A stretch of 58,432 nt of DNA, taken from assembly GCA_937921735.1 (NCBI GenBank), contig CAKZTQ010000021.1, positions 1 to 58,432 on the forward strand. Direction: 5' to 3'. This document shows positions 8,555 to 46,596 of this stretch, one piece after another (within the stretch, counting starts at the first letter, position 1; each line of letters opens with the position of its first letter). This stretch comes from an uncultured archaeon. GTDB lineage: Archaea > Hadarchaeota > Hadarchaeia > Hadarchaeales > Hadarchaeaceae. A program made the position numbers and the translations under genes. The notes below the pieces were generated by a model that was not told the DNA's origin, ran no database searches, and worked only from the letters and a program-made list of their open reading frames with translations.

Positions 8555-8614
8555 AATTATGTTATGATGTGGTAGAACCCTTTATGGTTTAATCATTATT
8601 AATAAAAAATTAAG

Positions 8615-8700
8615 TGGACCGGGCGGGATTCGAACCCGCGGCCTCCCGCTTTCTCGGGCACCATGCGAAGCGGGCGTTCATACCGCTGAACTACCGGCCC
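8615..8700 (-). tRNA. tRNA-Ala(CGC) with 13-nt intron at 37/38 (intron 8651..8663)
   Basis: Reverse complement folds to full cloverleaf: GGGCCGG/CCGGTCC with G3:U70, anticodon stem CCCGC/GCGGG interrupted by TGGTGCCCGAGAA, T arm GCGGG-TTCGAAT-CCCGC. Confidence 0.9.
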
Positions 8701-32715: not shown

Positions 32716-33258
32716 ATGGACGAATTCACGCTTCGGGTGACCTACTGCGCGTATTCAGCGATCTTGGTTGCGCTCCTTCTATTCCTGTTATCCAAAGGGC
32801 TCAAAAGAGGGCTCCTCCTACGGCCCGTGCTGCTGGGGTTTTTGGCGGGCATGGGTTGTTACATGCTACTCGGGGCAGGTACGTTCGCCCTCCTAGTGAG
32901 CGGGCTGATCACGGGCTATCTCTTCTCGGATAAGGTTGAGGGGTGGGGCAAGCACATGCGCGCCGGGGGATTAACTGGCATGCTGTTCCTTCCAAACCTC
33001 TCGCTAGTCCCGATCGCCTATGTGCTCTTTAGGTATAGCATCGCGGAAATAGCGAAAAAGCTCGAGCGGGCGGTGGGCGGTGGGGAGCTGCTGACAAACC
33101 TATGTGGGCGGACGTTGCTAGATGCCCTTTTCCTGATCGCCCTTGTGGGGCTGAGCGCGGTTTTAGGCGGATTTCTGCGTAAAACATTAAAGCCGAGGTA
33201 CCCAACTAAAAATGGTAGCGGGGTAGGGCAGATAGGAGTGCCCGCCGGTCGTGGGTAA
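32716..33258 (+). CDS. hypothetical membrane protein
   Basis: Multiple hydrophobic segments; ORF 3' end overlaps initiator tRNA by 42 nt. Confidence 0.5.
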   Translation: MDEFTLRVTYCAYSAILVALLLFLLSKGLKRGLLLRPVLLGFLAGMGCYMLLGAGTFALLVSGLITGYLFSDKVEGWGKHMRAGGLTGMLFLPNLSLVPIAYVLFRYSIAEIAKKLERAVGGGELLTNLCGRTLLDALFLIALVGLSAVLGGFLRKTLKPRYPTKNGSGVGQIGVPAGRG

Positions 33259-33377
33259 CCACGGGCGAAGCTCATAAGGCGTCGAGCCGTGAGTTCGGCG
33301 CTCCTGTGAGACCCGGAGGTCGGTGGTTCAAGGGAGGGATGGTAAACCTTCCTCTGAGATTCCACCCCCCGCTACCA
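33217..33377 (+). tRNA. initiator tRNA-Met(CAT) interrupted by three putative introns; CCA encoded
   Basis: Exons give AGCGGGG TA GGGC-AGATAGGAGT-GCCC G CCGG|G CTCATA|A CCCGG AGGTC GGTGG TTCA(A)|(A)TT CCACC CCCCGCT A CCA: A1:U72, CCGGG/CCCGG anticodon stem with three G:C, CAT anticodon. Introns approx 33249..33269, 33277..33310, 33332..33359. Confidence 0.85.
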
Positions 33378-46300: not shown

Positions 46301-46596
46301 GCCGACGAGTCGGCCGTAACCCGTCTTCTGTTTTCAGGCGGCATTCTGCTGAGCGGGCTACCACCCGCCTCAGGCGGGCGCTCATCGGCGGCGACTTGCC
46401 CTTGCATCTCGCGGATTGGCCGTTTCACCCTCGCTCGGCCCGACCTCAACGTCCCCGCATCATCGCGCGGGCCGGGAGGTGTCGTTTCTGTGCCAGGGTC
46501 TGGCCTCTCGGCCAGGTCCTCGCGGACCCGCGAGCCCGCCGGATGGACGGAGTTTCCTCAGGCCTTCGCCCGACGGCCGCCCACCGACTCGCCGGC
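46301..46596 (-). ncRNA. rnpB: RNase P RNA
   Basis: Reverse complement has P1 GCCGGCGAGTCGG/CCGACTCGTCGGC, 'TGAGGAAACTCCGTCC', 'CAGAAACGACACC', 'GGGTGAAACGGCC', 'AGAATGCCGCC', and 3' 'ACAGAAGACGGGTTACGGCC'. Confidence 0.93.

Follow-up and report, generated by a model that had tools for sequence, protein, structure and literature searches.

An initiator tRNA-Met gene interrupted by three introns of the bulge-helix-bulge (BHB) type is located at 33217–33377 (+) of contig CAKZTQ010000021.1, a 58,432-nt stretch of DNA from an uncultured hadarchaeal archaeon (the whole stretch is referred to as the window). The gene is composed of four exons. Exon 1 (33217..33248, +) carries tRNA nucleotides 1–30, from A1 to G30; exon 2 (33270..33276, +) carries nucleotides 31–37, GCTCATA, including the anticodon CAT; exon 3 (33311..33332, +) carries nucleotides 38–59; and exon 4 (33361..33377, +) carries nucleotides 60–76 with the encoded CCA. 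Intron 1 (33249..33269, +; 21 nt) lies at 30/31, intron 2 (33277..33310, +; 34 nt) at the canonical 37/38 position, where relatives have an orthologous intron, and intron 3 (33333..33360, +; 28 nt) in the T loop at 59/60. Every exon and intron of this model is found verbatim in the window.

The spliced RNA, AGCGGGGTAGGGCAGATAGGAGTGCCCGCCGGGCTCATAACCCGGAGGTCGGTGGTTCAAGTCCACCCCCCGCTACCA, is 78 nt long with the CCA and, unlike the unspliced sequence, forms a complete cloverleaf. It has the features of an archaeal initiator: the A1:U72 pair, the anticodon CAU, and three G–C pairs at 29–31/39–41 (GGG/CCC) in the anticodon stem. Compared with intronless hadarchaeal initiators, 72 of the 78 positions are the same in genome G007 and 70 in G022, and the pair changes in the T stem are compensated across intron 3. 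The bounds of this intron, GGAGGG...GAGAT, leave the T loop TTCAAGT, as in the intronless relatives. The initial annotation, made by reading the letters of the window, had named the gene with these exact coordinates and had recognised A1:U72, the anticodon and the encoded CCA, all of which are present in the spliced model. Its product length of 75 nt was too short, and its T-loop intron of about 28 nt has the right length and is now placed at 59/60.

The same annotation had held that the continuous sequence is not tRNA-like, and the tools agree: ARAGORN called no tRNA at the unspliced locus, and an Rfam search of the locus, with the threshold relaxed to E ≤ 10, likewise matched no tRNA. An aligner that tolerates introns was used with a consensus of hadarchaeal initiators, which was built mostly from relatives but composed with the window sequence in view. 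The locus scored 42, whereas 1056 other window tiles reached at most −11 and 500 shuffled versions of the locus at most −19. When no splice sites were supplied, the aligner recovered all three introns with 0 mismatches, that is, the set at 30/31, 37/38 and the T loop that had been proposed by eye. The split initiator gene with three introns is thus confirmed as real.

A possible TATA box, ATTAAA, was read by eye at 33186..33191 (+), about 22 nt upstream of GGTAGCGGGG; TTTATC or CTTAAA stands at a similar place upstream of the initiator genes of relatives. An upstream open reading frame (ORF) resembling a membrane protein (32716–33258) overlaps the 5' part of the tRNA gene by about 42 nt, and therefore the tRNA promoter is probably within its coding sequence.

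BHB motifs and orthologous introns in Hadarchaeota

In a BHB junction, 3-nt bulges holding the splice sites flank a central helix of 4 bp. BHB folding, suggested as a check in the initial annotation, agrees with BHB introns at all three junctions: introns 1 and 3 have all four central pairs, and intron 2 has three of four in the canonical register. In intron 1, the junction reads 5' CGCC[GG^T]CGTGG ... CCACG GGCG[AA^G]. The central helix is CGCC/GGCG, and the hairpin CGTGG-GTAA-CCACG that had been noticed earlier corresponds to the inner helix and its GTAA loop. The strict register, with 4 central and 5 inner pairs, was equalled by 1 of 20000 shuffled introns. Because a contiguous outer helix is lacking, the motif is of the relaxed HBh' type. 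Intron 3, TTCA[AG^G] ... TGAG[AT^T], is a complete hBHBh' motif with the central helix TTCA/TGAG, the T stem as outer helix and an inner helix of 6 bp; it was equalled by 6 of 20000 shuffled introns. In intron 2, the anticodon stem serves as the outer helix and the inner hairpin has 9 bp. When the precursor was folded stepwise, the anticodon arm and its BHB formed only once the 30/31 intron had been removed, which suggests that the 30/31 intron would be spliced before the 37/38 intron.

The initiator gene was located in 22 hadarchaeal genomes, with 0 to 6 introns distributed over nine positions. Six are present in G002 (4/5, 15/16, 30/31, 37/38, 45/46 and 59/60), five in G003, G008 and G013, four in G001, G009, G015, G018 and G019, and three in the window's genome (G000), G005, G014, G017, G021 and G025. 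One intron is found in G006, G023 and G024, and none in G007, G012, G022 and G027. The three introns of the window gene had been called striking; they are not the extreme case, since the orthologous gene has four, five or six in some relatives. The spliced products are nearly one initiator across the phylum, 77–79 nt in all models checked verbatim (16 intron-containing and three intron-free); those of G012, G015 and G017 were read by eye or returned by automatic alignment. Automatic spliced alignment recovered the window gene exactly but fused neighbouring introns in several higher-intron genes. Models with more than three introns therefore depend on placement by hand, followed by the verbatim check. 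It should be mentioned that most split relatives escaped a 15-mer pattern for the 5' end of the initiator and were recovered with a long BLAST query containing a five-intron gene. Since the relatives' genes come from separate assemblies, the pattern cannot have arisen from one assembly error.

The intron helices are maintained among these genes. At least 3 of 4 central BHB pairs are formed in the expected register in all 46 distinct introns modelled across the phylum, and the central helix of the 37/38 intron has all four pairs in G003, G009 and G021. Covariation was counted at the 30/31, 59/60 and 45/46 introns. Among the 30/31 orthologues, both partners have changed in 3 of 9 pairs, with 100% of the cells still paired; 9 of 15 pairs covary at 59/60 (7 genomes) and 6 of 13 at 45/46. 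For each of these three introns the covariation score exceeds that of all 500 shuffles.

Several further observations were made on this series. The 37/38 intron of the window (33277–33310) is identical to that of G008 at about 31 of 34 positions, loop included; this conservation seems to exceed what a spacer would need. An intron at 4/5, in the acceptor stem, occurs among the genes with five or six introns at L206 (G002), L198 (G013), L199 (G008) and L207 (G003). At L217, L202, L203, L198, L206, L218 and L199 the initiator tRNA is immediately preceded by a leader hairpin, GGTAGCGGGGAA-GCTACC, made of copies of the tRNA 5' end (AGCGGGG) and 3' end (GCTACCA). It is absent from the window gene and may have been left behind by a tandem duplication or a permutation intermediate.

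Host genome and splicing enzymes

The assembly comprises 1.05 Mb and is 83% complete; the window is its contig 21. The neighbouring anaerobic ribonucleotide reductase gene (nrdD) is closest to that of Hadesarchaea MAG-18 (78% identity), other Hadesarchaea being at about 64%. Hadesarchaea are placed by the NCBI taxonomy in the phylum Hadarchaeota, kingdom Methanobacteriati, and the related genomes form one phylum of their own, separate from Thermoproteales. A Thermoproteales origin of the host is ruled out by the nrdD affinity and this grouping. Thermoproteaceae-type archaea have a reduced RNase P RNA. A full-length archaeal RNase P RNA is encoded at 46305–46592 (−) of the window (Rfam, 201 bits), which is a further sign against a host of that type.

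Searches of the window's genome, as assembled to 83% completeness, found no second initiator tRNA gene, the check for another CAT initiator that the initial annotation had called for. The 12 other tRNA genes examined in this genome contain 16 introns together, so the initiator introns are part of a genome-wide habit of interrupted tRNA genes. Each of Glu(TTC), Gly(GCC), Val(TAC) and Phe(GAA) is interrupted twice, once at a noncanonical position (D arm or 30/31), whereas in Gln(TTG), Arg(GCG) and elongator Met the single intron is noncanonical. Several of these genes (L037, L038, L033, L006, L035, L036 and L029) were missed or misnamed by the automatic finder. At 8614–8700 (−) of the window, ARAGORN called a tRNA-Arg(TCG), which by eye is a tRNA-Ala(CGC) whose 37/38 intron is 12 nt long.

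Hadarchaeal genomes have at most one gene of the splicing endonuclease family PF01974, encoding a protein of 175–182 aa; the single copy in the window's genome encodes 182 aa. One RtcB gene is also present. The 182-aa protein aligns nearly without gaps to the Methanocaldococcus jannaschii enzyme (1a79), with conserved Y/H/K positions. In the alignment with the A. pernix enzyme, the hadarchaeal protein has a gap at the residues of the Crenarchaea-specific loop (CSL). A conserved GKPLxGG[KR]LQL stretch sits at this place and might, as a guess, substitute for the loop. Searches and alignment of the hadarchaeal endonuclease revealed no second subunit, fused beta unit, CSL or ARMAN-specific loop (ASL), the two loops to which the cleavage of relaxed motifs is attributed. 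In length and layout the protein fits 1a79, and it is probably a homotetramer like that of M. jannaschii, as far as its sequence tells. The endonuclease tree had too poor a resolution to give a direction to gains and losses.

Only (alpha-beta)2 and epsilon2 enzymes are reported to cut relaxed motifs efficiently, and tRNA introns are said to be few in Euryarchaeota, whose enzymes are mostly alpha4 or alpha2 (PMC6379350, PMC4090602). A single loop-less EndA-like gene together with several relaxed-motif introns, that at 30/31 of the window gene among them, suggests that Hadarchaeota depart from this published rule of enzyme–intron co-evolution.

Predicted processing and alternative explanations

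The locus is very likely the working, and probably the only, initiator tRNA-Met gene of this archaeon, with its three BHB introns spliced from the precursor; for all the genes described here, we infer splicing from the DNA. The gene would be transcribed as a 161-nt precursor. The 30/31 intron, a self-contained hairpin with a relaxed BHB, would most likely be removed first by the splicing endonuclease. Its removal would allow the anticodon stem, the outer helix of the 37/38 BHB, to form, and the 37/38 intron would be cut next. The 59/60 intron would be cut independently, because the T stem already provides its outer helix. RtcB would then join the exons into the 78-nt initiator. On the enzyme side, relaxed motifs would be cut by the single-subunit, probably homotetrameric endonuclease. 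The chance seems somewhat better than even that a loop-less EndA of this kind removes up to six introns, relaxed ones included, in an order set by competing exon–intron pairings.

Some observations weigh against this reading. The central helix of intron 2, CTCA/TGTG, has one U–U mismatch in the canonical register, owing to which its core score alone is not above that of shuffles (11%), and minimum-energy folding favours a shifted register. The covariation comes from 7–8 related sequences, and the shuffles leave this relatedness in place. Furthermore, the genome is a metagenome-assembled one, 83% complete, and a second initiator gene or a second endonuclease subunit could lie in the missing part. 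With such a genome, and a locus known from its DNA, one might suppose a decayed pseudogene, the real initiator gene being in the missing part of the assembly. This seems very improbable: the exons are intact and the T-stem changes are compensatory, orthologues are split at the same places with perfect exons and covarying intron helices, and G002, G008 and G013, at 92–95% completeness, also show the split gene only. A forced alignment by chance similarity in a GC-rich stretch, conceivable for exons first fitted by eye, has a negligible probability; it is refuted by the null test (42 versus at most −11 for other window tiles and −19 after shuffling), and orthologous split genes in sister genomes also oppose it. 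Two other candidates were rejected: group I introns have a core of more than 200 nt, whereas these introns are 21–34 nt long without an Rfam match, and a permuted gene, with the 3' part upstream of the 5' part, does not agree with the linear exon order.

The enzyme side would be ordinary if the introns were removed by a heteromeric endonuclease of the (alpha-beta)2 type with a second subunit diverged beyond detection. The relaxed 30/31 motif is of the kind ascribed to (alpha-beta)2 and epsilon2 enzymes (PMC6379350). This explanation is nevertheless considered unlikely, since exactly one PF01974 match at E ≤ 0.001 was obtained in 11 of 11 hadarchaeal genomes at least 90% complete, and relaxing the threshold to E ≤ 10 left one match each in seven near-complete genomes, bar one weak extra. 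The same search picked up two genes or two domains (a fused pair) in several other archaea, G037 (two genes), G042, G047, G052 and G059, and both chains of the Nanoarchaeum equitans enzyme (3iey) were retrieved with the hadarchaeal protein, the weaker one at 1e-8.

Comparison with known systems

Every protein starts with the initiator tRNA, and the precursor must shed three introns, or six in a relative, before translation. A range of 0 to 6 introns in one orthologous gene within one phylum is a rare series for tracing the gain and loss of tRNA introns. Multi-intron tRNA genes as such are already known, reportedly from Sugahara et al. in 2008 for Thermoproteales, and the hadarchaeal case adds a variant. 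In the open-licence literature, no paper on tRNA introns in Hadarchaeota was found. Six introns are not claimed as a record: at L120 and L121 (genomes G059 and G037), from another archaeal phylum, the initiator appears by eye to have about five. We take these two genomes, as a guess only, to be probably Odinarchaeia (Asgard).

The initial annotation had pointed to Thermoproteales, in which multi-intron tRNA genes are indeed known and have been reviewed (PMC4390854, PMC4033280, PMC8450103), although the host lineage is hadarchaeal. The likeness is that of several short BHB introns per tRNA gene at canonical and noncanonical positions; the differences are the phylum, the interruption of the initiator itself, the single-subunit endonuclease, and up to six introns in relatives, the most stated for one archaeal tRNA being three (PMC4033280, PMC8450103). 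Most tRNA genes of Asgard archaea are described as interrupted, often at noncanonical positions and by several introns each (PMC11291895), a similar richness in a phylum other than that of the window's host.

The permuted initiator gene of Thermofilum pendens (Chan et al. 2011, PMC3218864) is also interrupted at 37/38 and at exactly 59/60, so that the window's 59/60 intron occupies the very permutation site of that gene. Its parts are in swapped order, whereas here the order is linear and 59/60 holds an ordinary intron. The split initiator tRNA of N. equitans (listed in PMC3218864) likewise has a 37/38 interruption with a BHB junction, but it is trans-spliced from two loci, whereas one transcript would suffice here. 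The alpha4 endonuclease of M. jannaschii (1a79) resembles the hadarchaeal protein in being a single subunit of about 180 aa. A strict BHB is reportedly required by enzymes of its class, whereas in Hadarchaeota relaxed motifs must be cut; a simple-looking endonuclease beside relaxed-motif introns makes this long-held rule directly testable.
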